Assembly: GCA_002794775.1 (NCBI GenBank)
Contig: NBAY01000015.1
Location: 186,001 to 250,000, forward strand
From: Porodaedalea pini
Taxonomy: Eukaryota; Basidiomycota; Agaricomycetes; Hymenochaetales; Hymenochaetaceae
Reading direction: 5' to 3'
DNA: 64,000 nt
A program made the translations under genes and the position numbers. Shown here in pieces: positions 4,148-34,762 of the stretch. Below the pieces are notes generated by a model. That model was not told the origin of the DNA and did not search any database. It worked only from the letters and a program-made list of their open reading frames with translations. Within the stretch, counting starts at the first letter, position 1. Each line of letters begins with the position of its first letter.

Positions 4148-5151
4148 ACAGACCTGGAAAGACTAGTTGATGTTTCTGTCGGACGGTTTTCAGCTTCAAT
4201 GCATTCCCCCTCAAATTTAGATTCTCCAGGACTTACCGGAAGGAGCGTAAAGGTCGGGTAAAGGAGTGTAAGGCGCTCAATGAGCGAGAATAGAGAAAGA
4301 GAAAGCGGTAAATGATACAGCTCTTCGGGTGATCGTTGTGATTTTTGCAGCGTGCCAGCGTAGCATTGCTGCTTTACAAAACGGTTACTAGTGCTGGCAA
4401 AGTTCCATAAATTGCAGTCATTGAGGAGTGTTTTTTTGCGTGTCTTTTGGCTCCTGCATAAAGCAGGTATTTGTGTTCAACCTCACTGAAGTGAACATAT
4501 AGAGAATGGGCACGTTCGTTTGCCAAGTGAGCATGAGCAGAGAACGTGTCTCTGGCAGAGAACGTGTCTCTGGCAGAGAACGTGTCTCTGGCAGAGAACG
4601 TGTCTCTGGCAGAGAACGTGTCTCTGGCAGAGAACGTGTCTCTGGCAGAGAACGTGTCTCTGGCAGAGAACGTGTCTCTGGCAGAGAACGTGTCTCTGGC
4701 AGAGAACGTGTCTCTGGCAGAGAACGTGTCTCTGGCAGAGAACGTGTCTCTGGCAGGCAACTTCAGCTACCAGTAACGCTGTTACAGTCACGGCTATAAA
4801 TTCTGACTCAGCATTTTGTTGCCGCTCGCAATCCTCTCGTACTTTGCTCATACCTGAGTGCTGAGGCAGCCGTCTGGACTTTCCCTACCAAGTACCCCGC
4901 AATTCTGACATAACCATTGCTTTAAAAATATAGACGTGTGCTCACAATGAACAGTATTGTTTCTTCTTCAAGTTCCCGAATTCTTGTTACGCTCACCTCC
5001 GAGTCGAGCAGCCCACGCTCCTTACTTACGCTCTTTATCAAGCTTACTAGCTCGCTAGCGTGAGTCCTTGGCTTCTTGTTCAGTGTTCCAACTGACTGAT
5101 GCCTCACCTATAATTAGCCCGACCAACCCCTACTCGCTCTCTTCCCGGTGC
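4148..5151. promoter_or_regulatory. Shared divergent intergenic region of F-box pair
   Basis: About 1 kb between the start codons of two divergently oriented F-box paralogues, so it must hold both promoters. The 18-bp minisatellite lies in the middle. No further motif could be assigned with confidence. Confidence 0.4.
4538..4761. repeat. 18-bp minisatellite, about 12 units
   Basis: Perfect tandem copies of AGAGAACGTGTCTCTGGC, about twelve in a row. Because the unit is a multiple of three and contains no stop in several frames, it creates spurious open frames on both strands (for example repeating VSLAEN or ERVSGR). These are not genes. The unit contains a short internal palindrome (AGAGA...TCTCT). 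Confidence 0.95.
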
Positions 5152-6537
5152 ATGAACCCTGGGCCCAGCGTGACGCACGAAACGACAGATACTGAGGCAT
5201 ACACCACTTCTATATGCAATGGTATTGTCCAAGCTCAAGATTCAGGACAGAAGCTTGGAGAACTCCTGGCTAAAATACCGGAAGAGGTTCTGAGCGAAAT
5301 CTTCAGCTGGTGCTGTCCTACATTCAGCGATCGCTTCTCCGCGCCACCAATGTCAGTTCTCGTCTTGAGCCATGTCTGCCAAAGGTGGCGGAAGACCACA
5401 TTTTCCACCCCACAGCTCTGGACGTACACTAGCCTTGGAGCACCACGCCACAACTGCGAGTCCGCGACGGAGCTAATGCTGCTTTGGATCACCAATTCCA
5501 AGACCTGCCCGCTCGTTATCGATATCGACTTCTCACAATTCGCAGCGTTCAAGACTCCTGATGCGATTCTTCCAACTGTTCTGGAGCTCACTGAGATCGC
5601 TGCTGAGCTGAAGCCAGCCCCCAATCCCGATGACATGCCCCTCACTGTTGCAGTCGAGCCGTCAGTCTCTATCAAATTTCCGTATGTGTCAGAAGAATAC
5701 TATTGGACAAACGACGACCTGCTCCCCGAAAACTTTGCGCGCGGCTCATTACAGTTACGTGTGGCAACAAAGCCGTGCATCTTGCTAGGCTTGGACGGAC
5801 ACAAAGATTTTGGGCCGTATTTGGTTCACCTGGATCTTCGCGATGAGAAGGGAGCTATTTACTTAACAATAGAGGAGGCCTTGGGTATTCTGAGGGTGTA
5901 TCCAAATCTTCGCCATCTCACCTTCCGTCTTGGGGATGCCGGCAATAGGGAGGAAGACTATACATTGCCGCATCTGAAGACCCTTGGTATCAGTTGGTGT
6001 GATGAAGCCGATCCTGCGCCTATCCTTAACTCTTTGAATGCGCCTAAACTTCAGAATCTGGAACTCGATGGCCAGCTCCCTCCGGCCCATTTCATAGCGG
6101 GCAATTCTTGGGATCCCCTGCGGCAGTTTTTACAACGCTCGATGCCGTCACTCCGCGTTCTGGACCTCTACAAAATCCGTTGCGACGACATAGACCTTCT
6201 GGGGTGCCTTGGACGTTGCACTGGTCTGGAGCGTCTCTGGCTCGAAGACTGCTCCATTCACGAACGCATTGTGAGCGATTTTACCCAGGCGACACACCCA
6301 CTCGTGGAGGCTGCACAGCTCGCTCTGGAAAATCTGAAGACTCTCGGACTGGTTAGGTGTGAAATCTTCAACGTGCAGCAGTTCTTCCAGACTCTGGTCG
6401 TTTCTGGTGTGATATGGAGAGTCACAACGCTTAATGGCTTATACTTGTCTGACTGCAACGTCCATGAAGGCGTCTCCGAGACTTGGCATCTCCTTAGATC
6501 TCGTTTCGAGGACGGCGCGTACGAAATGCTGATATGA
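5152..6537 (+). CDS. F-box/LRR protein
   Basis: F-box protein of about 461 aa, predicted SCF ubiquitin-ligase adaptor. I chose the ATG at 5152 (MNPGPSVTHETT); the frame is open upstream to 5068 but without ATG. The F-box is IPEEVLSEIFSWCCP then SHVCQRWRKTTFSTPQLWTY, about residues 50-100. LRR-like segments follow (HLDLRDEKG..., HLKTLGISWCDE, LRVLDLYKIRCDD, GLERLWLEDC). It is single-exon and uninterrupted, stop at 6535-6537. It is paralogous to the frameshifted gene at 2679-4147 along its whole length, in divergent orientation. Substrate unknown. Confidence 0.85.
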   Translation: MNPGPSVTHETTDTEAYTTSICNGIVQAQDSGQKLGELLAKIPEEVLSEIFSWCCPTFSDRFSAPPMSVLVLSHVCQRWRKTTFSTPQLWTYTSLGAPRHNCESATELMLLWITNSKTCPLVIDIDFSQFAAFKTPDAILPTVLELTEIAAELKPAPNPDDMPLTVAVEPSVSIKFPYVSEEYYWTNDDLLPENFARGSLQLRVATKPCILLGLDGHKDFGPYLVHLDLRDEKGAIYLTIEEALGILRVYPNLRHLTFRLGDAGNREEDYTLPHLKTLGISWCDEADPAPILNSLNAPKLQNLELDGQLPPAHFIAGNSWDPLRQFLQRSMPSLRVLDLYKIRCDDIDLLGCLGRCTGLERLWLEDCSIHERIVSDFTQATHPLVEAAQLALENLKTLGLVRCEIFNVQQFFQTLVVSGVIWRVTTLNGLYLSDCNVHEGVSETWHLLRSRFEDGAYEMLI

Positions 6538-8694: not shown

Positions 8695-8701
8695 CAGCCT
8701 C
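8695..8701. repeat. Target-site duplication, left (CAGCCTC)
   Basis: Seven bases directly abutting the outer end of the left TIR. The identical heptamer abuts the outer end of the right TIR at 24971-24977. Confidence 0.85.
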
Positions 8702-9713
8702 CACTTCAGGTACCCCTTTTACCCAGACCTCTTAGGTGTAACTTAGCCCAATTGAGTTACACCTAAAGGTGCCTGTCCTGATATGTATATATATAGTCTG
8801 GGATGTCCCAGGGCAGGGGATGTTCCTGTAAGTTAATACCTATTAGCGCAGTTACCATAGGGCTGTCCCTCTGTTGTCACTGGGTGCCAGGGGGACTTTT
8901 CACTGGGATTTCCCCAGGTAATTTCAACCTAGTTTTATATTAAAAAATTGATATTTTAGGGCTTAAATTAGCAATCCCATGTTAGTTTTGAACAGTTGTG
9001 ATGCATTTAATGCTTGGCCTTGTGCATGGCCACTTTATACATACTAGGCAGCTGCTACTCTTTGAATATTATCATAGATTCAGCTTCACTGGATATTTGT
9101 ATGACAACAGATATGATATGGCTACACATCTCTAGCTTTGAATATAAGGAAAGTCCTCTTTTAATCTCTATATAGCATGACCACAAGTAGAACTTTGAGA
9201 AATGATGACCTCAGTGATAACAACAGAGATTGAGCCTCTGTAATTTATAGAATACACCCATGTTCTTAATTATTATGATTTAGAATACCTAGGAATGACT
9301 TTAACTGATAAGTATATGTATCTCATATCTATGGGGATAGCTCAGAGATAATAACCCAGGGATAGCCCAGATATAAATACAGAGGGATAGCCCAGACATA
9401 ATTTCATAGGGATAGCCCAGAGATCATAACTCAGGGATGGCCCAGAGATAATAATGCAGGGATAGCCCAGAGATAATAACTCAGGGATAGCCCAGAGATA
9501 ATAACTCAGGGATGGCCCAGAGATAATAATTCAGGGATGGCCCAGAGATAATAATTCAGGGATATCCCAGAGATAATTTCATAGGGATAGCCCAGAGATA
9601 ATAACTCAGGGATCGCCCAGAAATAATAATGCAGGGATAGCCCAGGGGGAACTTATTGTAATAAATAACACAAAGATCATAGCTTCTAGGACAGTAGACC
9701 TTGTTTGTACATA
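8702..9713. repeat. Left terminal inverted repeat of KDZ element (1,012 bp)
   Basis: Starts CACTTCAGGTACCCC and pairs base for base with 24970-23959. It ends at TGTTTGTACATA. The outermost 60 bp contain a second small inverted repeat (TTAGGTGTAACT...AGTTACACCTAA). The inner third is made of 25-bp tandem repeats. Confidence 0.92.
9334..9649. repeat. Subterminal 25-bp tandem repeats, left arm
   Basis: Twelve units and a partial one, core GGGATAGCCCAGAGATAATA with variable last bases (ACTCA, ATTCA, TTCATA). They are mirrored in the right arm. Arrays of short subterminal repeats are typical transposase-binding regions in large DNA transposons; that role is inferred here. Confidence 0.85.
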
Positions 9714-9856
9714 TAAGACTGCATCTCTCAGGCACACATCCATTATCATGACAATGCATTAGTATTCTGTCTGTCTTTGTCTTTTCATCCCACTCAATTC
9801 AGCACAGTGAATTTATAACATTGAATAAGTGTATTATTACAGGAAATTTAGATAAA

Positions 9857-12800
9857 TCAAGAAAGGACCATGCCTTCGACTCGAGCCCGTTTTTCTGGAG
9901 ACATAGGCAGTGTAGACTGAGTAAAGGCAATGTCCTGTAGAAGTGGATCAGAGACATTTTCTTGGAAGCCAGATTCCAAAACTAATGCATGAGAATTATC
10001 ATACTCGATTTGCTCTGCGAGCTCCAGAAACTCTCCATGCTCAACTCGAAGCTCATCTGCATGAAGTCCATCATCTGACTCATCATCTACTCCATCTTCT
10101 TCTGCTCTGAGACTAGGTGCAAAAAGGAAAGATGACCGCATGGCCGTGACTGTATGATACACAGCTGCATCTCGAAGTTGTTTAAAGTCCGCTATTTCTT
10201 CCATTGTCGGTCCCCAATTTGCATTATAAGCTGAGTCCACAGGAGGAACATATTCCAGCTTGTTGCACCATTCAACGCATAGAGCCAATAGCTCCTTTTG
10301 TCTGACTTGAAGGGCATATGCGAGACCAGATGTAGCGGCTGTTGAAGATATGAAATTCAAACCTGATCACATGTTAAATAAAGAGCTCACAAGCAGACTG
10401 TAATGCATTGATTGTACGCCTCCAAATATCGTGGAACCAATCCTGGAGAGCGGTTTTCTCTTTACTTAATCGCTGGAGCTCTTTGCGGCATCGTTTAGCA
10501 TCTAGGAAAGCACATATACCTCTCCTAGCATCCTCATCACCCATCCAACGAGGCACATCAGTATCATTAACGTCAGATAGACCGTCGTCCCACCATATAT
10601 CATTATCAATGTCCAAATCAAATAGTCCCTTGATTGTTATGGGTGTTGGACATTTCACGTCATGGGGAGCATCCTTCCGTAGTTTATCGCATAACACATT
10701 GTATGTTTTGGCGAGCTGAACTATGCCTGGCTTGCGACGCCTCAACTGGGATTCAATGAGCTCGTATTTTTTCTGTTCTGAATGTGCAAAATGTGAGGAA
10801 ACAATTAAGCTGAGTTTAATTGAAAGTACCTCCAGATGTTGAATGTTGAGCACGGTAAGGACATTCTAGATTCTGAAGTTCAAATTTGCGAGTCTGAAGT
10901 TTTGTTAGAAGGTGGCTGCACAAAGCATGAGCATTCATATGATCATTGATGAATGAACTATTTTTTAGCGATAAAAGCTTATCCTGATCCTCAACGCCAA
11001 GAAGACCTTTCTTCTTTTTCATGTCCTTGAGTAAACGAGCATGTGCAGACTCCAACTTCTTAACAGACATTAATGGCGTCAATATCAACATTTTCGTCAC
11101 TCTCCAAACTTCTGTGTAAGCAGTTGATTCTCTGAATCATTGCATCACATTGTGTCTGGAGGTTGATGATTTCTTCTATCGCTGTTCGTCCCACAGCTTT
11201 CGACTGACCTGTACAAACAGTAGCTGGCACATCATTTATCATTCAGTGGACACAGTGAAAGAAACACACATGGAAGTGCTTTAGACTGATGCTCGAGCTG
11301 AGCATCCCATTCCTTAACAAGTTCTTCTTCTGAGATATTGATTTCTCTTAGCTTCATCTTGGCATCTTGAAGGCGCCTGTAGCATTCTCGTGTCTGCTTG
11401 AGTAGCCATGATCCAAGCTTGAAAAGGCTGTTGCTGCTGGAGTATTGGACTTGAGTATCAATGACATGCAATCGCTCGTAATACTAAAAAAGATGTGATC
11501 AACACATGATGGTTTTATGGAAATGCTCAGACTTACTCCACTTATGTGAAGAGTTGGGATAAGGTGTTTTATTGAACTCCAAAAATGCTCGCATCCTTCA
11601 CCATCCATCAAGCCGAAGCCATTACATTTTCGAGGGTGGTAGACAATCTGACATGCCCATTGATGACTGTATGCGTGGAAGACAGAAATAGCGAAGATCA
11701 TGCGAGCAGCGTATTCAGGCAGAAACCCCCACTTAGCTATACTACAGTGGAGCTGGCAGCCTACATCATATAATACACCAATGATCGCGTCATCAGGAAT
11801 ATGTTGGAAAAGGGTCTGCAGAAGGGCAAGAGCGTAGTGTTGCTTCTCACCTGCGGACCGCATGTTGGTGAGCCAGAGGACACGATCGTGTTGACAGAGA
11901 AGTGCCATGAGTCCTGTATCTAAGAAAAATCTTGTGCTCGCTTTCTGTCGACGGTCATCCACAGCTTTAAATGATGATTTGCATTCATCCAAGATCTCAT
12001 CTGAAACTTTCAGCATGTGACTCGCTGTCATACGTTCCACTGCTGAGTCGTCTCGATTACGCTTAGCATGGTCAGGACAAAGGTGAGCAACTTCGATCTC
12101 CATAGCCTTCAAATTATCCTCAGATAAGAAAACAGTCTTAGGGTGAACGTTCGGGGCTCCATTGTCAGTCTTTCCCCTCTTCTGCTGGAAACATGCATCG
12201 ATGCAAACATTAAAGTCCATACTAAAAAGTACCGTATTAGCACATTTGAAGGACTCTGTAGAAAGATGCATACGGTAGACTGGGGTCATGTTTCCAGTTG
12301 GGTCCTCCAAAACATGCAGGACAACGTTCTTGAAGGTATAGCGATGGCAGCTTCGGTTCAGCATAGAACTCAATCGATGTGCCTTCATACAGTGTCCAAG
12401 TCAAAACATCTTGGTCAGTAATAGTTCCATGCACACATCAAAGAATACGCACTGTCGTTACCTGTGTTCTGAACTTCTTCAGCCAATTTCTCTTCTTGCA
12501 AACTTCCTAGGACATCTGTGAGTTGTGTATTGCATAGTTAATAGCTAGATAATCAGACATTATACCTTCGTAGTTGGAATCATCACCATTCAGGTTTCCC
12601 AAGGGCATATTGTTTCTCGGGCACAGAGAACTAGGTACAGAGCTCGAATCTCCACCATCTTCACCACTGCTAGCTTCACTACGCAAAGGCTGAGCATCAT
12701 ATGCCGTCGGTCTTATCATAGAATCGACGTGTTCCTGCGCAGCATCACGCAATGTACCAAACCAATGTAAACATTTACAGAACCTCTTTCGTAACGAGTC

Positions 12801-13679
12801 CTTCGAATAAAAGATCAATATAGGTGTGACACGAACATGAGAATGTGTACGTACGGAAGACTCGAACAAATATCCACGGGTGCTTAAGAAGGCCTCTAAG
12901 GTATTGCAGAGTGCTGTTTTGTTTGGTGGGATTCGTACAAAGAGCTCTAAGCAGAAGTCGAGGACATTTAAATCAACAGCTAAAGTTGGGAAACACGGTG
13001 CACAGCCGAAGAAACCTTTGTCAAGCAACTGGAACAGTGCTGAGTTGCAAGTGCAAGTAAAGACATTTATCTTTTCAAGCCCTACAAACTGAAATTCAGC
13101 TTTGTAGCTTATATGGGGAGAATAGAACATACCTGTAAAAGATACACACAGTATCTCAATTTCCATTCGCACACCCATGCATGTACATTGAGAGGACGAA
13201 GTTGATACCACCGGGTGTCGAAGGTTTTCCGAACGGTGAAGAATGTTGAGGTATGGGATAACAAGTCCAGGTATTACATCTTCAGACCACCATTGGTGCT
13301 GTCTGAGTCGCTTATGGTGGAACCTTGACAGTGTAGGATCGATAGGTGTGCATCGAGATGATGCAAAGATACTGTCATGTCCATGATTCTCGAAATTATC
13401 AATAAAATTATCAGGAAGCTCACAATTGTCAGAAGGCGAAGGCTTTCTAGGGGACGGAGATGGGGAAGCCTCGGATGGTCGAGCGCCTTGGGCATGTATA
13501 AGCGTCCGGCCGAAAGGCAGGAGGACAACAGGTTGCTGACTCTGCATATGTGAGCTTCTAGAGCGTGGAGTGTCGCTGAAGAGCTCCGAAGTCGACGGTC
13601 CTGGGATCAGAGCTGGGGACGGCGGGTTGTTCACGAGGGCGGCAAGCTCCTTCAGCCACTTGCCAGATCTTCTGGTCAT
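9857..13679 (-). CDS. KDZ transposase with CxC1 cysteine cluster
   Basis: Transposase of the giant element. Eleven exons join in frame to 1106 aa: 13679-13133, 13081-12855, 12800-12566, 12515-12462, 12409-12274, 12221-11537, 11483-11270, 11223-11090, 11049-10830, 10777-10391, 10338-9857. The ninth junction (11050-11089, 40 nt) and the seventh (gtgtgt donor) are the least certain. The CxC1-like cluster (about residues 150-290) shows CTCMG, CTCNSA, GCAPCFPTLAVDLNVLDF and RIPPNKTALCNTLEAFL. The KDZ core has VCIDACFQQKR (D408), DTGLMALLCQHDRVLW, GVLYDVGCQLH (D552), FHAYSHQWACQ, YHPRKCNGFGL and DGEGCEHFWSSIKHL (E608/E611), the expected acidic residues of the fold. A coiled, basic C-terminal region follows. 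No internal stop remains after splicing. ATG 13679 follows a TAG, so an upstream exon is possible. Confidence 0.9.
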
Positions 13680-15838
13680 CGCTAGTATGAAGAACGTTGC
13701 AATGAAAGAAGGGGAAATGCGAGACATCCAAGTTGCAAACCACTAAATGCATGTATCAGTAACTTTTCGCTAAGATATGGAAGATGTTTTTTTTTTTTAC
13801 CAGCGAGCCTCTATGTGAGAATAGAACATTATCATGGTTTGTGGCCTGCAATCTGTCCTTTGTTTTTGTTAACGAGCCACTGATCGATCAAAAACTAAAA
13901 GATAACTCATCTTTTGTTCTGTCCTTTCCGGCTTCATCTTAAGCTATGCGGTTGCACCGTATCCTTCTCCACGCTGACGCTCCTGGTCACTGACGCATTC
14001 CACACTGCTATTGTTCAAACCATATACTTTGAGCACCTTATACTATTGAGGTACATTCTTTTTTTCCCTTTCCATTGGTCCCGCAGAATGCTCATTTGCA
14101 AAACTATCTACCATACATGCACAGACTGGAGCCCCAAAAATGTGTTCGACAGCTTTCAACCACAGTATACATTCGGTTCACATATCGACTTGCCAATCCA
14201 AGTATATGTCTCAAACGGATCACTCGACTCTTGACTAAGGTACTCGTGGATTTCAGCTGGACCGAGTTTATGGCCATCATCCTTGGTGGTTTCCTCCTCG
14301 ATCAGGAGGTCGTCAAGTGACTGCTACGTATGTACTGGAAGTCAGAAATATCGCCACTCGCGGCCAGCATAGTGTAGGATCCTACAGGATGCAAGGGTGG
14401 GATGTCCCTGAAATGCGCGAGGGACTCATATGATGCTGTCAGGCATAAGCTTTCAAATTTAGTATTTATGAGGGAGTCCACAAATCCGACGCACCAAGGT
14501 TGTCTGCAACCATCATGATTCTGACCTTGTACTTAATCGCAAGCACGCTCGTGCTGGTCACTATGAGCTGTCTGCATTTTTATCATTTAGTCAGTTCTCA
14601 GTTTTTGCGTGAGATAACATCAATGCAGAGTAAGTGCATACTGAGTGCGCTGCACTCCATCTGTGAACGCGTCTGTTGGTTGCCAATTGTACGGCCTATG
14701 GTGGAAGGGATAGGTATTGTGCATTCAGCTTGAGGACAATGAGAGTGTACTACAGAGGTCGTTGAGCTCAGAAATGGTCCTAGGAAAACGTACTCAGCCA
14801 TTGGAGTAGCGGCATCAGCAGTTTGAGCAGATATGAGTGCGCACTTACCACGTATGAGTATCCTTCCAAGCCACCACGGTTTACAGAAAGCGTTGAAAAT
14901 TAGCTTCGAAGTTTGACGTATATTTGCTCGTATTGCATGCTTACCAGAGCATTACGGAAGTTCATTTTCCGTCACCGACGATCAGACAATGGACCGGAAG
15001 AGGCTGAGGAGGCATTGCAATAGAAAGCCACAAAGGTGAACGAGATGTAGCTGCATGGGCGGGACGTCATGCGGAGGTCATGGCGGTCAAGAGAGAGTTA
15101 GAAAGGTGTGCCAAAAGCGGAATCGGAGTTAGATATGCAGTGATCAGGTGAGTGGCATTAAACTTCCTCATTTGGATATGCTGCACTTACAAGCAACTCA
15201 TTCACATGCTCTGATCACTGCACATTAGCGCCGCGTTTAATTTTAGAACACCTTTCAGCCTCTCCGTCTTACTCCCATCATCGCTCGCTCGCCGTCACAT
15301 GCAACCAGCATACCGACCTCCAGCTTGCCACCTCAGCGCATTCAGCTCCAAATCCACCTCGCCTTCACCATCTGTGTCCTGAGCTCAAGACTCAGAGGTT
15401 TTTTAGCACATCACTGATAATGGTGAATGCTTCATCGGCCACACATCAAGTGAGCTTTCATGCCTCATTCTGACTGTCATAACTGCCTCATCAGACACTT
15501 TTCTCTTAACAGTTTTTTTTTACAGCAACTCAGGGTTCCAACGCTGTGAAGCGCGTTCCGATTGCTCAGGCAAGCCCGATTTCACACTGTTTTCTTTATT
15601 TAGTCGCTTGTACCGTAATTTTGTATATTGGTAGTCACTGTTTGTATTTCGAACTTTTGTACTAGCAAAATAAAGGAACAGAGAAGGCTAGATAGAAAGT
15701 AAGAAAAATAGTTAATTGATTTCTCGTTAGGATCAATAAGCCAGGGAGTAAATTTCGTCAAAACAGAAAGTAAACCATGTCAAAGGTGTGTAAAGAATGC
15801 ATGAGAGGTGTTACACTTAGCTAACGTGAACTTCAGAT
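13680..15838. other. Intergenic core of KDZ element with a possible membrane-protein remnant
   Basis: Divergent region between the transposase and the Spt5-like gene, so both promoters should lie here. Around 13914-14240 (+) the frame KLCGCTVSFSTLTLL, then TDAFHTAIVQTIYF, resembles the N-terminal helices of the fungal seven-helix DUF6534-type family. Neighbouring frames (14500-14730) are hydrophobic too but broken. I read this as a decayed fragment at best. From 14,900 to 15,838 nothing is recognisable. Confidence 0.3.
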
Positions 15839-18832
15839 GCCCAGACAAGCAGCGGATGAACGAGTTTTGCGCTATTTGGATCTGGAGGCCGAAGACTTCG
15901 ATGAGGACGATAACGACAAGGCTTTCTTAGACTCAGATGAAGGTATTGTGGGACTCAGCTACTCAAATATGCCTCACTGACCATTGACTCATACAGAGGC
16001 CGAATTTATCGACGATCGCGGCGAAGGAACATTGAGTGCAGGAGCGCGTCAGCGGCCTGTGCTATACAATATTGTTGAGCAAGATGACGTTCGAGCCATA
16101 CTTTGAGGCATCAAAGAGCATCATAAAATGTACAAGGAGACCTTTGACTACGGACACTTAAAAAATGAGAAGGAGCATGTGTCGGCGAGGATCGGTGGTA
16201 CGGGAAATAATCTATACATGATACGTGTCAGGGTAAGTGAATTCAGTTGAAAAGTGATTGTGTTATGCTTATGCATGAATAGGTCGGCCACGAAGTCAAG
16301 GAGGTGAAACTACTACATGAGTTCTTCCTCGAAACCGAGACTTCATGGGTACAACAAGGGCTGCCGCGTCCTTCTGAACAACCTTGCGCCTTCTCTCTAC
16401 CAGCGTTTCCCAGACGTATCTATGCAATCGCTCCGACACTCGGCGAGGTCAACTACGCAAAATCTTGGCTGGCACACCAGAATTTGTCGACAGTTGTTTG
16501 TGTTTGGGACGAGGAGGAATCCGCCAAGGTGCTCAGAATGCGCAATGGAAGTGCCTCTTGAGAGAGATTTGAAGTCGGCGAATGGGTTACCATCCAGCGC
16601 GGTCTGTACAAAGGCGATATCGGCTGCGTCAGAGAGTCGAGGACTCAAGATGACCGTATCGTAGTGGCAATCATGCCTCAACTTCCAATCGACAAGGAAT
16701 CATCCGCTCGTCCCAAGCCTGCGCTTTTCTCCCCTGATAACTTCAGGGGTGAAAAAATAAAGAAACATGACTCAAGGACTTATACCTTTCGGCGTCGTAA
16801 GTACAAGAATGGACTACTCAAACTGACCTGCCCTAGCGTGCACTACGTTAGAAAGGCATCCCCTTCTTTACAGGACATCAGACTTTTCACACATACGGAG
16901 GCTTCGTTTGGACCCTTGGACCGCGGCAAACCATTTCTTCGAAGTGGTGATAAAATCCGCAGCTTGTCGACCGGCTTAATCGGGACTGTAGGCGACATCT
17001 TGAAATATGCCGTTTTGTCGACGCATACTATAGATACCTTGGGAAACTTTGTAGGCGGTGTTTCAGGCGATATCTCGGAGAACAGACACTCCGTAATTGA
17101 ATATACCAAGATCGAGGAGAGGAAAACGGTCAAGGATAAAGGCAAGGAAAAGGAAGTGGTAGAAACAAGAACTATTGGTTCTCTCTTGGCGGACTATATT
17201 CCTGTACTGAATGTGACAGACAATTCCGGTAGAGTCCAGTATCATACTTTACAGTACGCTATGTCAGACATTCGTAGAGTATTGGAACCGGGCATGAATG
17301 TCCGTGTCGTCGTCGGTCCATTCACTGGCGAAACTGGAATGATACAGACTGTCTCAGTGGATGAAAAAGAAATTTCATTCATTACAACCTTGTATTCTAC
17401 GGTGTGTGTATCCTTCACCTCAAGTATATTTACTAAGTCTTTTTTTAGTTTACTGTCAGAGCGAAATGGGTCCAAATGGTACACACCGACATGACTCGTT
17501 CTGGAGTCAAGAAGCATATCGCGCAACTCCTCCAGAGTCAGTGGTGCATCATTACTAGTGGTCAGTACATTGGACGAAAGGCACAGGTCATCTCAATCGA
17601 CAACGAGACAGCAACTTTGGTTTTCGTGACTGAGGATGAGTTGAAGAATCATATTGTTTCCGATGAGGTACATATTTGTTTACTTTACCTATGAGAAACT
17701 TGCTCATTCGTTCGTTTATTCATTCATTCAGTCTACTGAGCATGTGGATCGACTGCAGCCCGACTTTGTCGAGGCTGCCAAAAAAAAAGACACTTGACTC
17801 ATTGAGGATGGCAAAAGCTCTGCCGTTCCGCAGACCACTGACGAGCTGTGTCAATTCCGCGATCATTTGCAGCATCTTCGCATTTTCGTCATCAACAACA
17901 AGGACTTCAAGGGTCGATTTGGCTACGTGCTCAGTATGAATCCGAATAAACCGATGGCGACCATTTCTATTGTGGGGACGATGAACATATCAAGAAGCAC
18001 ACCCAAGCAAATCATTGATCTAAAAGATCTAGTTGCAGTGTATGTGTTTTCTTCCAAGCTTATTATATACTTATTAATGTACTGTACAAAGCGGTGACAA
18101 CGCATATTGCTTGGACCTCGACCATCCTCTGACCGAGAAACAGCAGGTACATTTGACCGCCAAATTCAAGTCCTTGAGAGAAGGCGGCGCATGCTGGCAT
18201 GAGTCGACTTCGACCACCCGCGCAGTGACTCCCCCTCCTGATACAGCTCTCATTGAAGAGTTGAGGAGCTTTGTAACCAACCTCAAAACTGTGGACCCGC
18301 TACCGGCGCCTGTTGATGAGCCACAGACCTGGCCACCACCTCTCGGCCCCCTTACCGGTGTGTATAGATTGATCATGATTAAGATCTTACTCACTTTCTG
18401 TCAGATTTCTCTGGATCCGGCATGTGGATTATACATCCCGATGCGCAATCGTTGTACTCCAAGTACAAGATTCATTTTTGCATTGGCCAATCGACGCTCG
18501 ATAACTGGATGATTCTCGGAAGCATCGTGGACCACTTTCAATGCGAGAATGACAATGTGCACGGACTTTGCCGCCTTTGTGCTATGCTTACGGACCATCG
18601 ACAAATGACGAATTCAGGGTTTCACGACATGTACGTGAAGGATATCAGGGTGCAAAAACCCAAAAAAAATGCTGCTGCTCTCATTGTTCACGGTGACCCT
18701 GGGTTACGTGGGAAGATTGTTACCGTCAAGAAGTTCTCGAAGGACAAGGCAACCGTCATCGTCGTCGACTCGGAGAAAAAATCGTGGAATGAAAGTGTCT
18801 CGAATATGACCCTCATAGAGAAAATAGAGTAA
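15839..18832 (+). pseudogene. Spt5-like NGN/KOW transcription elongation factor carried by transposon
   Basis: Resembles Spt5, the NusG-like factor that binds RNA polymerase II with Spt4. Start MPRQAADERVLRYLDLEAED with an acidic N-terminus (DFDEDDNDKAFLDSDE). NGN-like segment from about 16,230 (VRVGHEVKEV..., RRIYAIAPTLGEV). KOW motifs: VGEWVTIQRGLYKGDIGCV (about 16,580), PGMNVRVVVGPFTGETGMI (17,290), TSGQYIGRKAQVISID (17,560), FKGRFGYVLSMNP (17,910), a C-terminal GDPGLRGKIVTVKKFSKD; stop at 18830. Seven or so GT-AG introns join in frame (for example 17401 to about 17448, 18026 to about 18092, 18359-18405). Three in-frame TGA codons break it, at 16104, 16559 and 17795. Each could be CGA before a C-to-T change. 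No TAA or TAG occurs in frame. Likely dead unless TGA is read through. Confidence 0.8.
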
Positions 18833-19417
18833 ATTAGACAGCTGTATCATACTGGAAATCTCGGAATCACCAATGTACTATAACTTAGCATTTAATTTAT
18901 TACGATGTTCTACTGTTCCACTCCGAGCCACAAGTTTGTGCGACCTTCGATCCTGCCATGTGCGCAGATGTCATCGGTATGCATATCAGTCTTGATATTT
19001 GCCTTGTTCCCATTCTGATGTGATTTGTTTTACAGATTATCCTCATCTCGAATTTGGTGCTTGAGATTTGCAGTTGCTACGGTCTTAGGCCTGTGAAACA
19101 TGAGGCTTGTAAGTCAAGATTGGAGGCCACATTTGAGAGCCAAATGCCACAGTGCGCTAAGATTTCATGGCCGATGGGTCAAGTACTGCATGATAAGCCA
19201 CTTTATTCTTTTTATCCTATTTAATGCGCCTGACGAGAACCATGAAATCCCATTTCACATATCTTCTCAGCTTGAGCAGTAGTTTTGAAAAGGTCCTCCA
19301 GAGTTCCCAACCAGCATGGTTGTTGGCACATGTCGGTCCGCTAGGCTCGGTGGTGAGTACTTCTTTCGATCATTTAGCGCACGCTTCTCTCACTCTGAGA
19401 AAGGAAATGTTGAGATC
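18833..19417. other. Spacer between Spt5-like gene and next transposon gene
   Basis: Same-strand spacer with no supported coding exon. Pyrimidine-rich AG acceptors such as the one near 19035 suggest that an unrecognised 5' exon of the next gene could lie here. Confidence 0.35.
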
Positions 19418-22400
19418 ATGCAGGCGCCTCCGCAAGCGCCTTCTGCAAAGCAAGAGTGACGGTCCAAAAAGAAAGTGCTCACGGAAGAAGTGAGCTTATC
19501 CATTCAGAAGAATGATTACATTGCTTATTAGGCATACAGGATGGCGAGTCTAATACTAAAGCCAAAGAAGGCAGCCGGGAAAAAGAGAAAAGGGAGAGGA
19601 ACATTGGAGGATGTTGTAGAAGAGACTTCGAAGGATACCGAACCCGATAATACAGTGGAGAAAGTCAGTCAATCATTCAATGTTTGTCTTCATAATGCTC
19701 ATTAGTACAAGCTCGTGGAGCCAGTCAATGATCATTCTGAAAGGACTGAATTGCAGTCCATCCGTGATGACCAGGGCATGGCTCAGGCTCAGTATGTCGA
19801 AGACATCGAGTTTCAAAGCTCCCACCTCGAGCGCGATGAGATGGAGTCCGAGCGGCTGCGCAGGCAAGAGGTTTTGCATACGCGAGAGGCTGAAGTTCTT
19901 CAACTCACCAAGAACCGGAACGACTACCTAAATGAACTTCGGGCGATGGTTGCTGCTCCTCTTGATGATATGTTGAGCCAGGAACAGCATGAGATATCAA
20001 GAATCGCTCATGAAGAAGCTGTTAATGAGTATTCAAGACGGGAGAACCTAGTCAAGGCGGCGCGTGAATCTGTTCTAAGAGCAAAGGCGTCGTTGCAGAA
20101 GCTTGGTGTTGATATTGATGCGAAGGACGGAGAGCGACATGTACGTGTTGACACTGTTTATGCTTTACAGTATATGAATGAATCTCTAGGCTTCTGGCGA
20201 TGTGGAAAACACAACGGAATCACTGCAAGTCTGCGTGGACTCTGAGTTGACGTCTCCCGCAATGGCTTCTGAGCAGCAGCACGAGCCAATACATTGCGAG
20301 CGTGCAAATGATGAAACTCAAGGGGTTCCTGAGATCGAGACAGAGCAAGATCCGCACGCTGAGCTTCGTGCGGCTATGAAGTACCTTAGCTCTGCTTGTA
20401 ATGCACAGTGAGATAGGCCGAGTGAGGAAACTGACAAAAGGGTTGCAGAGGCTAAGAGGAGATATATGGTGGTGCATCAACGAGTTGAAGAGGCAGATAA
20501 TATTGTTGAGGAATCGCACTCCAACAGGCTGGCGAATGATGATGATCAGGTTGACTCACAATGCTCTGAGCGACAGGCAAGTAAATCAATTCATATAATA
20601 TATACGGCACTGATGTATATAATACTAGGCATGAGAATCATATCAACATGATGACCAGCATGGCCGTGACAGTATCGGCGGACTTGGGGATACAAGTCTC
20701 ACTATAGAGAGAAATCCATCTAGTCTGGTAAGAAATATTACAGTATAACGTTATTGATCAATGTTCTTATGCTATGACCTTCAGGAGAATCCAATGCTTC
20801 GAGTGAGTGCCGAGGCTCTGAAAAATGATCCCTTCAATACACGAGAGCAGAGAAAGAGGCCAAGGGCACCGTATTCAATTCAGAATGAGCCATTCACTCT
20901 GCGGCCCATCTCGCCGCCACATTCTGTGCACAGAATTCCTGCAATGAGTGCACCGAATATACCATTGGACGTCCAGAAGATTGCCTCGACTGGTACTGTC
21001 GTGAAAGCTCTGACCAAAGGAGGTCCGCCTCGTGTTCCGATAGCTCCATCTTTGTCACAACAGCCATGCAACGCACTAGATGATGCTCACCCTTCTGCAG
21101 CTCTCGCAGCCCTCATTCGGTCGAAGGAGGTTAACCCTGCAGCATGGAATGCGTTGATTCAGTCAACAGAAGCCATATGTCAAAGTATGTATTTTATTGT
21201 TATTTAGTTATTGTCGAACTGACTGTCCATTAGGACACACTGTTCCTTCAGATGCAGCTGCTAGCGGTTCAGTCAACATAGTCAGTGAGAAGGCATCATC
21301 TAACTCCGACAATGAATATCCTATTGCCCCTCCCCTCCCACCTGCTTCAAACGGGCCTGTCCTTCGTCAGCGCAACACCTCTCTCCCCAATCTACAACCA
21401 AATGAGGAGGAGGATGTTCTTGATGATGCATCTTCATCCGACGAGTTTGAGGCTCTGAGCGACGATGAGACAGATTCCAAAGCTGATGCCGAACTCCAGC
21501 CAGGAACAAGCAAGGCAGGTACTTCATCTCATACGAAGAAGGCATCTAGGAAAGAGAAGGGGAAAGGATGTGTACCTCTGCCTTCTGATAGATCCCGATT
21601 GAAGAAACACAAGCATGGTGCATCCTCAGACGTAACCGAGTTGAATAAGGAAGCAAAGCGCCGCAAACCTGGGCCACCATCAAAGGAAGGGCTAGCGCAG
21701 GTTCGCAAACTCTTCAATGATATCTTGGACATTGCGCATCGAGAAAACAAGGATGTCTGGGCATTTCTTGACAAGCTCGGTGTATCACACAAAAATTCTC
21801 ACAGTGTGAACATGTCCAATATGTTTGCAAAGTACTACTCGAAGAAAATCAGGCCTTACGATGACCAGAGAGGTGTGTAGTTTTCTGATGTTAATCACTA
21901 CCCCTCATAACAGTTTTTCAGATGACGCAGACACATACAGAGCTGAAATACAGTGTAAATACGAGGATGCAAAAAAGATGAACGAAGAAGATCGTGAGAA
22001 GCTATTCGAAGACGTCATTTCTTGGAATGAACAGCTCGACGAACTTGATATTGACACGGTCAAAAATCTCGAGGGCGTCTGTAATAAGGGTCTGCACGAG
22101 TTTTGCAATTTTGTTCGTTTCCTTTTCTCTTCGTATGCTTTACTTTGTCTAATGTTTGCGTTAAGGCTTCAAGAGATTTTGCGAGAACAAAAACGTTGTG
22201 GTTTGCTTGTCATGTCAATCTCTCGAATAACGCACAGGCTGGAAAGCTAAAAGGGTTCATTGGTGGGATACTGCTCACTGAAAAGGCATTACAGCGAGCT
22301 TCATTTATAACAGCGAGCCTTGCCAGAGACTTAGAGACATGCGCTAGGTGAGTGATCTTTGACATATGTACAGGCTTTTTGCCTTCATACCACTGACGTA

Positions 22401-23242
22401 CTATTTCTACTCAGAGCTGCGGAACTGCAAGAGTGTGGCATCAATGCAGATGAGCTGGATTGGCCAATTTTTGATTTTCGTGCAAATGAGAAAGATGGCC
22501 TTCGATCAATATTTGGCCACTATGTGAAGAAAGACTTAGGTGAGTAGTCTGTCTTCATTCATGAGGGTGTCCTAATACATTGGTAGAACTTTTATATAAG
22601 CAAAGAGGTGATCTGAAGCAGATATTCAAAGTTGGCAAACCGATCCTGCCTTTCTTGTGGAGAGAAAAAATTAGTATTGTTGGCATTCCTGACGATATCG
22701 AAACCAGTGGCATGAGTGGTGGTAAGGATCGTGACGGCAATGATATCAAATTCGAATGGAGAAACTTGAAACTCGAAGGGAAATCATTCAAATCGTCAAA
22801 TGGAAAGCGCCCCAGCGTGATTCAAAAGGTCATGAAGCCCATCATCGATGAGCAGAAAGCAATCCAGAATGGTGAAGAGCCACTCTCCGAGGATGTGATG
22901 CGCTTTGTTGACTTAAGGGATGGTCAGTCGTCTATTTTATTTTATTTTATTTCCTGTGATCCTAGCTAAACAAGATTTGTAGAACTCTCTAAGCCGCTTG
23001 CTTCTCTCATTGATTTTGCAATGATCAAGACTACAACTGGTCGGGAGTTAGTTTTATTACGAGATTGTGAGGCATTCATTGCAGAGCTTGAAGATTCTTG
23101 TGACACCCCTTCTGCTGCGGCTACGTTATCAGATGCATCATCTCATAATCTTGCACAATCTCTATATGACAATGCTGCAACAGGTCTTCTTGATGACATG
23201 GAGACTTTTGATGAAGATGATTATTTATATGCTGATATATAG
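19418..23242 (+). pseudogene. Large unrecognised transposon-encoded protein with stops
   Basis: Not recognised. About twelve exons join in frame from ATG 19418 (MQAPPQAPSAKQE) to the stop at 23240. In order: a Lys/Arg-rich start (KKAAGKKRKRGRG), a long charged coiled-coil region (about 19,710-20,550, QYVEDIEFQSSHLERDE..., REAEVLQLTKNRNDYLNEL), a Pro/Ser/acidic linker (EEEDVLDDASSSDEFEAL), a basic stretch (RSRLKKHKHGASS, KEAKRRKPGPPSKEG) and a compact C-terminal half without match to a family I know (KTLWFACHVNLSNNAQAGKL, ELDWPIFDFRANEKDGLRS), ending in an acidic tail DDMETFDEDDYLYADI. Introns at for example 21184-21232, 21873-21921, 22121-22171, 22348-22414 and 22541-22587 keep phase exactly. 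In-frame TGA occurs at 19457 (if the start is right) and at 20409, both compatible with CGA-to-TGA decay. Confidence 0.7.
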
Positions 23243-23958
23243 TTGTAAATAATTCCAATTTATTGTGTGATGCTGTGTTTGACATGTCAGTGACGCTGTA
23301 TTTGACATGTCAGTCAAATACTTTGTAGTTACAGGGTTTTCAATAAACCTCGTCACTGCGCATTTCAGAAAAAAAAAAGTTGTGCACTCTCCCAAAGAAG
23401 AATCTGCCTTTTTGGGTGAGGACGCGCATTGTGAATTTACACAACAAGCTCGCCATTAATATTGAAATGATGTTGAGACAAGTCAAAGTATTTAGACCAC
23501 ATTTTCAAGGATTTTTTAAGAGAAAAATACTCTGCTATATTGAAGGCCCACTTTCTCCACTTTCTCCATTTTATTTTACATCTGCTGTTCACGTTATCCA
23601 CCTTTTGAGAGCACGACGCAGAGCTAGCAAACAAATCCATGACGTGTCCCCACCCAAAAAGGCAGATTCTGCTTTGGGAGGTGCATAACTTTTTTTTTTC
23701 TGAAATGCACACTGACAAGGTTTATTTAAAATCCTGTAATCCATAAGGGTTTACACAAAGCTTCAACCTCTGAGTGTTGAAAGTGGACCTAATAGTTCTT
23801 CATAATGCATTGAATGTTTCATGCAAGGGCTTGGTGGTGGATCATGAGGAAAGGAGGGTGACTCAAAGCCCTTTGCACATGCAGTTTAATTTAGGATGCA
23901 ACTCTGGTGCCTTCAAAGTCATGCAGTGTAGTTTTGACAGTGCTGGTGTAGCATAATG
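23243..23958. other. 3' spacer with nested hairpin insertion
   Basis: AT-rich downstream region of the last transposon gene. It starts with two direct copies of TTTGACATGTCAGT (about 23279 and 23301), contains the MITE-like element at 23329-23739 and ends at the right TIR. Confidence 0.5.
23329..23739. mobile_element. MITE-like nested inverted-repeat element, about 411 bp
   Basis: The ends are TTACAGG...CCTGTAA. Roughly 125 bp at each side pair imperfectly, including GCATTTCAG then a run of ten A, then TCCCAAAG and AATCTGCCTTTTTGGG. There is no coding capacity. No clear target duplication beyond possible TA-type bases. I infer a non-autonomous DNA element inserted downstream of the cargo gene; it could instead be a hairpin terminator-like structure. 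Confidence 0.55.
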
Positions 23959-24970
23959 TATGTACAAACAAGGTCTACTGTCCTAGAAGCTATGATCTTT
24001 GTGTTATTTATTACAATAAGTTCCCCCTGGGCCATCCCTGGATTATTATCTCTGGGCGATCCCTGAGTTATTATCTCTGGGCTATCCCTATGAAATTATC
24101 TCTGGGCTATCCCTGGATTATTATCTCTGGGCTATCCCTGAATTATTATCTCTGGGCTATCCCTGAGTTATTATCTCTGGGCTATCCCTGAGTTATTATC
24201 TCTGGGCTATCCCTGCATTATTATCTCTGGGCCATCCCTGAGTTATGATCTCTGGGCTATCCCTATGAAATTATGTCTGGGCTATCCCTCTGTATTTATA
24301 TCTGGGCTATCCCTGGGTTATTATCTCTGAGCTATCCCCATAGATATGAGATACATATACTTATCAGTTAAAGTCATTCCTAGGTATTCTAAATCATAAT
24401 AATTAAGAACATGGGTGTATTCTATAAATTACAGAGGCTCAATCTCTGTTGTTATCACTGAGGTCATCATTTCTCAAAGTTCTACTTGTGGTCATGCTAT
24501 ATAGAGATTAAAAGAGGACTTTCCTTATATTCAAAGCTAGAGATGTGTAGCCATATCATATCTGTTGTCATACAAATATCCAGTGAAGCTGAATCTATGA
24601 TAATATTCAAAGAGTAGCAGCTGCCTAGTATGTATAAAGTGGCCATGCACAAGGCCAAGCATTAAATGCATCACAACTGTTCAAAACTAACATGGGATTG
24701 CTAATTTAAGCCCTAAAATATCAATTTTTTAATATAAAACTAGGTTGAAATTACCTGGGGAAATCCCAGTGAAAAGTCCCCCTGGCACCCAGTGACAACA
24801 GAGGGACAGCCCTATGGTAACTGCGCTAATAGGTATTAACTTACAGGAACATCCCCTGCCCTGGGACATCCCAGACTATATATATACATATCAGGACAGG
24901 CACCTTTAGGTGTAACTCAATTGGGCTAAGTTACACCTAAGAGGTCTGGGTAAAAGGGGTACCTGAAGTG
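23959..24970. repeat. Right terminal inverted repeat of KDZ element (1,012 bp)
   Basis: Inverted copy of 8702-9713, same length. The few differences seen are single substitutions, mostly inside the 25-bp repeat array. It ends GGGGTACCTGAAGTG. Confidence 0.92.
24023..24338. repeat. Subterminal 25-bp tandem repeats, right arm
   Basis: Mirror image of the array at 9334-9649, seen on this strand as repeated TATCTCTGGGCTATCCCTG. Same number of units. Confidence 0.85.
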
Positions 24971-24977
24971 CAGCCTC
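24971..24977. repeat. Target-site duplication, right (CAGCCTC)
   Basis: Exact copy of the heptamer at 8695-8701, directly outside the right TIR. Confidence 0.85.
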
Positions 24978-26977: not shown

Positions 26978-27097
26978 TGAGAGGGTGATGGGATTTAGTA
27001 ACCAGAACGACATACCTCCTTTTATGACATTTGGAAAGCAGCATGTGAAAGATTCAAGATTCTTTGTTAGTAATCTCCTCGGTGCGCAGCATGATTA

Positions 27098-27584
27098 CTG
27101 CCCTTTGCAGAAGTATTGTCACACGTGATTTCACTGATTTTCGTGCCATGAGCCTCAAAGCACAAACATTTTCATATCTCAACCAAAAGTTGACCTTTTT
27201 GCATCATCTAAGTTGCTAAACTCATTTTTTGTCTCATATTTCATATTTCAACAAGAGTGATAAGAAATAGTCAAATTTTGAGTCCTAAACTGCAAAAATG
27301 CTGTTTTTGAACCCATTTCCCTTGTTCATTTTTTCCTGAACTCAGATTTCACTGTACAGTGCTCCAGACCAGCCCAGAATTCCAGTATTAGTCTATTATG
27401 AATTTACAGACTGATTTTGAGATGTATTGTGAGGTAGATGTGCTGAATTGGTGCATGCCTAAAACACACAAATCCTCTCTGTTTCTGCAAGCCCCCCAGC
27501 CCCCAGGAAAAATTCTTCTTAGCTAAGTTCATGCATGTAAATTCATTCAAAGTGTATTGGAAGAGATTTGAGCAGCATCCATGG
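27098..27584. repeat. Left arm of foldback element
   Basis: 487-bp inverted repeat, AT-rich, pairs with 35746-35260. It ends at AGCAGCATCCA. Confidence 0.85.
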
Positions 27585-27633
27585 ATACAGGCTTGCTTCA
27601 TGAAACAGGGATATGTTCACAAGAATAGTGCTT

Positions 27634-28078
27634 TGTCATGGACAATTTTATTATTTTCATTTTTATTATCATTCCCTGTTATCTTATCTTATCATATCTT
27701 AGCCATTCATTACTAATCAATGCTTATTTTGGTTTACTCATATCCATTATGTCCTTTTCCCACACCCTCATCACTTGCTGACTGATCCTATGACACTGTT
27801 GTTCTATGAAGTTCCATGACATTCTTTCATCTATCCTTATGTAGTAGCTAATTCCCTGGTCCGTGTGCAGCCTCTGAAGGGTATATAAGTAGATAGTCCT
27901 CCTGTACTTATCCCTTAGTTTCAACCTGGTCAATTCTACCTGGCTACGTCCAGAAGCTGTCCCTTATCCTTGCACTCTGTCAGCTCCCCTGGCTCACCAC
28001 TCTCTCTCTTCTCTCTTCCTCTGACTGAGTTCCGCATGACCTGGTTACCTCTTGCATATCCGTAGTCCGTCACTGACA
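27634..28078 (+). repeat. 5' LTR
   Basis: Starts TGTCATGG, ends CACTGACA. Contains GGGTATATAAGTAG, a likely TATA box, near 27880. It differs from the 3' LTR at about nine sites, seven of them in the last 50 bp. Confidence 0.88.
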
Positions 28079-28820
28079 CAAGGTCAAAACTTAAAACTCC
28101 TTACCACCTTGCACGCTTCTCAGTCACCACCACCAAGCTGGCTCTGAACGTTCATGTATCATACCGACACCAGTCTATCTACTGCAATACGTTCTATCCT
28201 CTTACCTGCACCCTGCAAATCACTCTTACTCTTAACCTCTTCCTATTATCCATTGTCATCACTCTTAACCCCTATCTTGTCCAACCACCTCAAAACCGAC
28301 CACTACCTGTCTGCAACCCCGAACTCTAAACCAACATTCTTATCCAATGTGTCCGACAACTTGGACTGTGACCCTGACTATGATCGCTTCGACCCACACC
28401 TATTCTCAGATTGATCTCATGTGCATTGATCAGGCTGATACGTCGTTAATCCTTTACTTTCATTATTAAACTCACTCGTTTCATAACCCGCTGTCCTCTT
28501 TCTATTCGATCAACCAGTGCTCATTTGAGAGGGGGTAACATTGAGTCCAACCCACTCAAGAGTAGCTACCAGGCCTTGGGGGTGATCTTTGGAAAGGTCC
28601 CTTGGCGCCTGTTGGAGTCTTCACAGAGGAAGATCCAGGTTTGATCAGCAAGTGAAAGTCGACCACCACATCTGGAGTTTTGTTACAGTGCTTGATCAGA
28701 CCCACAGGCGTCTGCACCACCTGTCAGCTGGCAGTGTTGTTTCTGATCTGAGCTGGCTCCACACCTGTACAATCGACCATCTGGATCAGCAGCCCCTCAT
28801 TGGCATACATCACCAGAAGA
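28079..28820 (+). other. Gypsy leader region
   Basis: Untranslated leader between the 5' LTR and the gag remnant. No clear tRNA primer-binding site could be read directly after the LTR (CAAGGTCAAAACTT follows). Pyrimidine-rich, no coding support. Confidence 0.5.
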
Positions 28821-28829
28821 TACTGCCAA

Positions 28830-30611
28830 CACCATCCTCGAAAACCTACCACCGCTGACCGACAATGACCTCGCACACCTAGATGATGAGCTAAGAGCCG
28901 TCCAACCTCCCCATTCACCACCAGCACCTTCGCCCATCATGTCAGAACCCCAAACTCCTGTCGCACCAGCTGCAGGAGCGCCAATGGTCTCAACTGCAAT
29001 GATGCAGGAAATCATCAACACTGTAAGCCTGCCAGAGCGTTCTTACCATGTCTGACATGACACCAACTGCTGGGACACTGTGTCATGACTCTGAGGTACC
29101 GAGCGGCCATATTCTGAGATGCACAAACTCTGGAAGGCCAACATACAGCTGTACCGCGACCGCACCGAATCTGAGCCCGGGACTCGGTGGCAGCATAGCC
29201 TCCGGACCTTCGGAGCAGGGCAGGTTATACTCTATTCATCTCCTTTTCATATTCCCTTCACTTCCCAACCCATCCAAAGCTAATACAAACCCGTCCGAAG
29301 CTCATACACACTTGCACCGAGCCGAGCAATCCTTCAGCATGTATATGCCGAAGATTTACATCTTCCGAGAGTAATTCTCAATGGATTCCTTTCAGACTGG
29401 TACTGTACAGTTCATATTATCTAATCCTTTCTATTTGAACCCTTTCCGATGCCTTTGTTGCCTCAGTCTCTCTGACAGCAACAAAGGTGAGTAGACAATT
29501 TTCCTGTATGTATTTCCAGTCTCTCTGACAGCAACAAAGATTGTTTTGTCCTGTCTGTCTTGTGGGCTCAAGTGTTGGCACTACCTAGGTGCCTTCCAAA
29601 CATGCTGCATGGCCTGGGATTGTTGGCAACCCCCACACCAGCAGCAGCAGCAGTACCCATTCCCCCTCCCCAAATGATGAACAGTAGTGGAGGGAGACAC
29701 ATTGTCAAACCCGACGCATTCAATGGGCGAGACTACAAGAAGTTTGAACGTGCCATTACCCTCTATGTTGAAGCTAATGCAGGGGACTTCGTGAACAACA
29801 AGGACTACTTCCTTTTCATGTTATTGTTCATGATGGAAGGCACGGCCACACTCTGGGCCCAGAACTTCTTAGAAAGCATCAAAATGGATGGCTACCTGAT
29901 CTTCTCACTTGTCAGCCGCCAAAAGTTCAACAAACAACTGGAAAAGGCATTCAGAGACCCAAACAAATGCATGAATGCCATGCAGAAATTGGACAGCTGG
30001 AAACACACCTGAGATATCACCGCTGACCAATTCTTCCAGCAGTTCGACATCTATCACTGTGCAGCGGGATACGGCGATGATGCCAAGAATGATGACACCC
30101 TCATCCACAAGCTGATGAAAGCCTTGGATAGAGAAATCATATACCGGATCGAAATGAGTGACACAGTACCCACCACATTTGAAGGCTGGAAAGAAAAGGC
30201 CATTCGGTTCGACAACGCCAGATGTCAAATGAAAGTGATCAAACAAATGTGTGCTGCCCCACCCAGACCTCAGGCACCCCCACCTAAACCTGCTCAAACA
30301 TTCACACCTAAGATCCCTGAAAGATGCGATGCCACCGGAGTCACATACAGAGGCATGGGGAAGCCGATGGATGTATCACTCAAAGAGCTGAGGTGATCAG
30401 GTGCCTGCTACTACTGTGGAGAGCAGGGGCACCTAAAGAGGGATTGCCCAAAACAAAAGAAAGTAATAAGGGCTGTGTTGATGGGGATGGAACCATAAGA
30501 GAGAAAAGTCTGGGCAGACGAGACTGCAATGCTCAAGGAGTCAGACTTTGCGGAGGAAGAAGAGGAGGTGCTCTTTGAGCAGGAGTTGGATTTTGCAGAG
30601 CCCCAGCAGTG
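28830..30611 (+). pseudogene. Gag remnant of gypsy element
   Basis: Broken gag. N-terminal part near 28,840-29,035 (LPPLTDNDLAHLDDELRAV, then a Pro/Ala-rich stretch). The region 29,050-29,560 does not continue it and may be an insertion. A capsid-like segment follows (IVKPDAFNGRDYKKFERA, EGTATLWAQNFLESI) and a CCHC zinc knuckle CYYCGEQGHLKRDCP near 30,405. In-frame stops: TGA 30010, TGA 30394, TAA near 30,497. The capsid part binds RNA and builds the particle in intact relatives. Confidence 0.75.
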
Positions 30612-34750: not shown

Positions 34751-34762
34751 AGGAGAGGGTCA

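Follow-up and report, generated by a model that had tools for sequence, protein, structure and literature searches.

Positions 8702-24970 of the window, the 64,000-nucleotide stretch of Porodaedalea pini DNA that was analysed, are classified here from their sequence as a decaying copy of a three-gene, Kyakuja-like transposon of the KDZ superfamily. One of its genes encodes a homologue of the transcription elongation factor Spt5, and the distribution of related loci shows that such a gene often accompanies KDZ in this genome and is not a peculiarity of the element at 8702-24970. That the element is a KDZ transposon with three genes, one of them for a true Spt5 homologue, is regarded, jointly with a less certain mechanism, as probable. 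The window corresponds to C15:186001-250000, where C-numbers designate contigs of a 53.3-Mb assembly comprising 201 contigs. The initial annotation had described a KDZ transposon with these ends, with 1,012-bp inverted arms and 7-bp target duplications, together with two extra multi-exon genes opposite the transposase, one of them Spt5-like. This description was borne out in its coordinates, in the arms, which are 99.3% identical to each other over 1,012 bp, in the presence of CAGCCTC on both sides, and in the position of the two genes on the plus strand against a KDZ gene on the minus strand. The features of the element are the following:

8695-8701, no strand: left 7-bp target-site duplication, CAGCCTC, read from the sequence
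8702-9713, plus strand: left inverted arm, 1,012 bp, opening with CACTTCAGGTACCCC
9334-9645, plus strand: 25-bp tandem subterminal repeats of the left arm, 12.5 units
10005-13679, minus strand: predicted KDZ transposase gene, about 11-12 exons and about 1,000 amino acids (gene model)
15837-18832, plus strand: predicted Spt5-like gene, about 9-12 exons and about 800-830 amino acids (gene model; broken in the window copy)
16559-16561, plus strand: premature stop codon within the Spt5-like exon 16283-17401 in the window copy
19841-23242, plus strand: predicted third gene, gene C, about 12 exons and about 900 amino acids (gene model, exon borders approximate)
23959-24970, minus strand: right inverted arm, 1,012 bp
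24027-24338, minus strand: 25-bp tandem subterminal repeats of the right arm, 12.5 units
24971-24977, no strand: right 7-bp target-site duplication, CAGCCTC, read from the sequence

The element is a single DNA transposon of about 16 kb with CA..TG ends (CACTTC..GAAGTG), and it is these ends, together with the 7-bp duplications, that justify the label Kyakuja-like. With the Kyakuja elements of Laccaria bicolor and other Agaricomycotina it shares a KDZ transposase, 7-bp duplications, CA..TG ends and the presence of an accessory gene, as far as the part of the source devoted to these elements describes them (PMC12730594). The TET-bearing Kyakuja of Laccaria are reported there to have 7-bp duplications and CA..TG ends and to lack terminal inverted repeats, TIRs (Kojima 2025, PMC12730594). 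The absence of TIRs is described for two Laccaria families, and the gene borne by the elements of that work is a TET/JBP dioxygenase (PMC12730594). The present element differs by its 1-kb arms and by its cargo of an Spt5-like gene and gene C; because of its 1,012-bp arms, it is not called a member of Kyakuja. Large KDZ elements with TIRs (about 9-11 kb) are also described in Cryptococcus neoformans as KDZ1, KDZ2 and KDZ3, whose transposase contains a CxC1 domain (PMC12810828). However, their TIRs measure only 139-241 bp, their duplications are of 8 bp (KDZ1) or 4-8 bp (KDZ2 and KDZ3) instead of 7 bp, and no Spt5-like gene figures in the sections of that source describing them (PMC12810828). 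Zisupton, of the same superfamily, likewise has TIRs, but its duplications are given as 8 bp in the passage that mentions it (PMC12730594).

Searches of the assembly, in which the numbers of copies and loci are lower bounds, found at least eight copies that the probes for all three genes match with 94-98% identity: the window copy, C15:651673-674758 (C15b), and those on C5, C114, C106, C23, C29 and C12. Parts of the element are missing from C29 and C106. Both termini can be read in four of the eight (window, C5, C29 and C23), and all four have their own 7-bp duplication (CAGCCTC, TCTCCTC, TTATATA and TTGTAAG). The duplications are unreadable in C15b, which has lost its right terminal bases, in C114 and C12, which reach contig ends, and in C106, which is shortened on the left. 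The assembly thus does contain further copies that agree in ends, gene order and 7-bp duplications, a search for which the initial annotation had proposed, while the empty site that it had also suggested looking for, TTGAGCCTCAGCCTCTCTGCC, was not found there with up to 2 mismatches allowed.

Six diverged relatives (C110, C17, C107, C3, C67 and C7) match parts of the element at 66-80% DNA identity, C67 being matched at the DNA level by the Spt5-like probe alone. The order and strands of transposase, Spt5-like gene and gene C are as in the window in all six, with the transposase of C7 known by DNA match only, its KDZ domain being absent from the listing. An apparent lack of gene C in C110, C17, C107, C3 and C67, based on the DNA search, was dropped when a protein search found this gene in all six relatives. 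C17:197004-226370 has terminal matches at both ends in inverted orientation; the terminal CACTTCAGGTACCCC is common to C17 and C110, and CA..TG is seen at one end of each. The terminal similarity of C17 to the window covers 69 bp only, with none further in, and C17 carries a separate array of repeats of about 24 bp. Three further matches to the transposase probe, at 65-68% DNA identity, were found at C23:26838, C95:54968 and C2:10093, and no Spt5-like match lies within 15 kb of the KDZ loci there (C23:27958, C95:58022 and C2:10897).

These data bear on the idea that arms and genes came together by chance through the nesting of elements, or that the copies are host segmental duplications. Nested insertions are common, and insertions interrupt the copies C15b, C12, C106 and C23. 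Nonetheless, the three gene probes share the same eight loci, four copies have different 7-bp duplications, and ends or order are retained in the diverged relatives, all of which makes a composite or duplicated origin extremely improbable. The initial annotation had considered that the three genes might never travel together, or that the arms might belong to two different elements; instead, the genes are found jointly at the eight loci and in the six relatives, and the two arms are those of a single element.

Each arm is composed of an outer part of 632 bp, in which left and right show no difference, followed by the 12.5 units of the 25-bp tandem repeat and by an inner part of 68 bp. The arms of C29 are identical to each other, as are those of C46, despite 14 and 13 differences, respectively, from the window arms, which points to homogenisation of the arms within the element. 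No such homogenisation is seen in C5 and C15b, whose arm pairs differ at 4 and 6 sites (the latter at the damaged end), and certain arms are identical between different copies. Two other arm pairs were also noticed. At C46:74946-112902 the arms, with identical outer parts, are separated by 38 kb and lack a matching duplication, and the interior is absent except for a piece beside the left arm. At C19:38646-39920 two arms of the family stand head to head inside 1.3 kb, which leaves no room for genes; the pair is taken as a palindromic derivative.

The gene models were computed, without transcripts, from coding conservation among the eight copies and three diverged relatives, and were fitted to the window copy. 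The predicted transposase, with a further weak last exon at 9799-9934, contains a KDZ domain located mostly in 11537-12221 (Pfam PF18758, E 3.5e-58, 197 bits against a cut-off of 26.6), and, for the CxC cysteine cluster that KDZ transposases have N-terminal to this domain, a weak match to CxC1 that scores 23.3 bits against a cut-off of 26.9. The KDZ exon has 692 related proteins at E <= 0.001 in a large protein collection; those listed are mostly exon-sized, and Tephrocybe rancida is the sole organism name among them. The dN/dS of the transposase is 0.23 (shifted frames 0.84 and 1.19), and the comparison with C110 was set aside because of saturated synonymous sites and frame breaks. For gene C, the value between C5 and C7 is 0.24 (shifted frames 0.81 and 0.75), and no Pfam match was obtained at E up to 1. 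The gene model on the C5 copy splits gene C into two, and its N-terminal part might be a separate gene. The 2014 PNAS paper defining KDZ is said to have listed additional encoded proteins, including one with a divergent HMG domain, and gene C may be this HMG-domain protein.

The predicted Spt5-like protein comprises an acidic N-terminus, an NGN-like region and KOW motifs. Its largest exon was taken for the homology reading from the C5 copy, where it is open. Compared with solved Spt5 chains, the C5 exon reaches an E-value of 1.7e-8 for the whole sequence and of 3e-5 for the best single stretch, and it is colinear with Spt5 over 345 residues, from the NGN region through KOW1 to KOW2. The PDB listing, which extends to E 1, has 16 sequences, of which 13 reach E <= 0.001, and all 13 are Spt5. 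Pfam detects a KOW match in the protein at E 3.2e-10, while the NGN model PF03439 matches the host gene only and not the element copies, despite the in-order alignment of the NGN region. The likeness to Spt5, the RNA polymerase II elongation factor, lies in the succession of NGN-like region, KOW1, linker and KOW2. The difference is that the element protein is transposon-borne and only 23% identical (E 1e-10) to the host's own Spt5, encoded on C24, and because of this low identity the gene is interpreted as a deep Spt5 paralogue rather than a fresh capture. Moreover, its dN/dS is 0.20 over 2,451 sites between C5 and C110 (shifted frames 1.01 and 1.69), 0.22 between C5 and C17 (1.04 and 1.30) and 0.24 between C5 and C7 (0.81 and 0.98), and it is thus under purifying selection between families.

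Outside this genome, the large protein collection yielded no Spt5-like relative at E <= 0.001, whether the spliced model or the largest exon was used as query. Fungal proteins are represented in that collection, as the 692 matches of the KDZ exon indicate, and the link between Spt5-like genes and KDZ is consequently known from one genome only. Alongside these searches, no relative was found in viral contigs either. A literature search returned nothing joining Spt5 with KDZ, transposase or transposon; the KDZ-defining paper of 2014 was outside its scope and may list an Spt5-like neighbour. AlphaFold2, applied without alignment to the Spt5-like exon of the window copy, gave an unusable model (mean pLDDT 36).

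Within the assembly, a search with the Spt5-like protein produced 97 matches, hand-merged to 33 loci (70 of 99 candidates scored), and a KDZ search produced 77 matches, hand-merged to 53 loci. A KDZ domain lies within 15 kb of 27 of the 33 Spt5-like loci found and, conversely, an Spt5-like locus occurs at that distance from 27 of the 53 KDZ loci; the 26 others, which include the three with a transposase akin to that of the window, show none. KDZ is nearby at 12 of the 14 Spt5-like loci of the eight copies and six relatives, the exceptions being C106, which has lost the KDZ exon, and C7, for which the domain is not listed. More distant Spt5-like loci, with 24-40% protein identity, number 19, and 15 of these are near KDZ, when about 3% would be expected given that at most 3% of the genome is within 15 kb of KDZ. 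According to a reading of the strands, 4 of the 15 have the divergent layout of the window, and at the other 11 the two genes run in tandem, Spt5-like first and KDZ downstream of it. Four Spt5-like matches have no KDZ match within 15 kb (C1:2568719, C1:2296903, C7:321583 and C107:34921); these loci are either solo copies or cases in which KDZ was overlooked by the search.

Transposons capture host genes, and the Spt5-like gene could be a passenger of this kind, acquired once from the host and useless to the element. The 6 Spt5-like loci with no KDZ within 15 kb and the 26 KDZ loci with no Spt5-like match would fit such a view. On the contrary, the purifying selection between families, the distance from the host's Spt5 and the recurrence of KDZ beside 15 of the 19 distant loci are difficult to reconcile with a useless gene, so that a mere passenger is considered improbable.

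Relative to the majority of the eight copies, the window copy has 284 internal differences, 276 of which are transitions. When the strands are folded, 255 of its 265 C-to-T changes occur at CpG, which amounts to 16% of CpG cytosines versus 0.2% of the others, and the other seven copies have a like pattern, with 104 to 434 CpG changes apiece. The rate of CpG change in the window copy runs from 0.12 (preceding T) to 0.22 (preceding A), hence there is no preference for TCG. This decay, almost only at CpG in all eight copies, contrasts with the reported non-detection of hypermutation among Agaricomycotina in the part of the source dealing with it (PMC12730594). Three DNA C5-methylase matches exceed the cut-off in the host, and we infer that methylated CpG is the cause of the decay.

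As to the coding frames, the term "intact" used in the initial annotation does not hold. The stop at 16559 interrupts the Spt5-like frame of the window copy, this codon being open in the seven other copies, and of 97 columns in which 46 related proteins show a conservation of 90% or more, the window KDZ exon departs at 10 (the six other copies with a KDZ exon depart at 4 to 9). The transposase frame, like that of gene C, is open in the window copy, in models fitted to that copy and hence favouring it, but its sequence is altered at those conserved columns. With these gene models, none of the eight copies has all three frames open. The window copy is probably dead, while the scarcity of non-CpG changes leads us to infer that the family was mobile until not long ago.

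The arms have a different CpG content. Together they contain 4 CpG in 2,024 bp versus about 78 predicted from composition, whereas CpG occurs at 1.04 of expectation in the majority sequence of the interior. Close to the ends of C110 and C17, stretches have 0, 0, 0 and 1 CpG where 12.3, 17.8, 12.2 and 23.0 are expected. Diverse transposons are reported to be less active when their CpG is methylated, Sleeping Beauty being the exception (PMC3680223), and for this reason CpG-free arms, beyond the reach of methylation, are a plausible, if unproven, kept property of the element. The case is almost balanced, with a slight lean away, for the view that the scarcity is merely old CpG decay and no maintained property. 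Other repeats of the window are also CpG-poor, with CpG at 0.12 of expectation for the arms at 27095-27584 and at 0.17 for the stretch 57571-58800. However, those repeats retain the TG/CA excess left by decay (1.27-1.53), whereas the outer KDZ arm has values of 1.20 and 1.11, nearer to the background of 1.12 and 1.10, the contrast between 57571-58800 and the KDZ arm being small; besides, the ends of the relatives are CpG-free too despite their different sequence.

Several other features were observed in the window. The CpG-poor stretch 57571-58800 is an AT-rich block, perhaps an old repeat. The region 27095-35749 has inverted arms of 490 bp (99.8-100% identical) around the direct repeats 27636-28078 and 34765-35207 (98%), with open frames that by eye resemble Gypsy pol, and is seemingly an LTR element inside a fold-back element. 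Two more inverted pairs were noticed: 37101-37694 and 47174-47771 (about 595 bp, 87% identical, spaced 9.5 kb), and 38788-39115 and 45645-45973 (73%). To the left of the KDZ element there is a perfect short-period tandem repeat at 4537-4756, in which identity is 100% whether the shift is 36, 54 or 72 bp, and similar-looking open frames occur on opposite strands at 2996-4162 (minus) and 5059-6537 (plus), F-box/LRR-like by eye.

A likely mechanism can be proposed for the family. The transposase would dock on the terminal 70 bp and on the 25-bp subterminal repeats of the long, almost CpG-free arms, and would then cut and paste the element, generating the 7-bp target duplication; cut and paste is proposed because of the KDZ superfamily and the target duplications. 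The Spt5-like protein would aid RNA polymerase II in passing through the CpG-methylated interior, so that transposase is still made, in a form of anti-silencing. Such an aid to elongation is the most likely role for this protein, although it can be assigned only tentatively. KOW domains generally bind nucleic acid, and the gene adjoins KDZ both divergently and in tandem; both facts would also suit a protein that acts with the transposase on DNA or in the transposition complex and not in transcription. Against this, the homology is to Spt5 proper, with NGN region, KOW1 and KOW2 in order, and not to an isolated KOW motif, and a role of this sort is judged rather unlikely. In plants, SPT5-like/KTF1 of RNA-directed DNA methylation is a second Spt5 tied to transposon control; there it is a host gene serving silencing, whereas here the transposon would own it.

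If the Spt5-like protein does aid elongation, it would substitute for TET/JBP by supporting the polymerase and leaving the methylation mark in place. TET/JBP genes on fungal DNA transposons have been read as an escape from DNA methylation in the part of the work that discusses them (PMC12730594). The parallel is drawn because the host has C5-methylase matches, because the decay is of the CpG type, and because no Tet_JBP match over the cut-off was found in the host genome, with one weak match on C6, in a search run without a eukaryotic positive control. It is conceivable, but on the whole doubtful, that the complete proposal is correct, that is, that the KDZ transposons of this lineage own an Spt5 for transcription through methylated chromatin as well as methylation-proof, CpG-free docking arms, paralleling and here replacing TET/JBP. 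A deep Spt5 paralogue, as a second and unrelated companion of KDZ transposases at many loci of this genome, would make transcription elongation another front between transposon and host. This raises the question of whether a given KDZ family tends to have one or the other, a TET/JBP gene or an Spt5-like gene.
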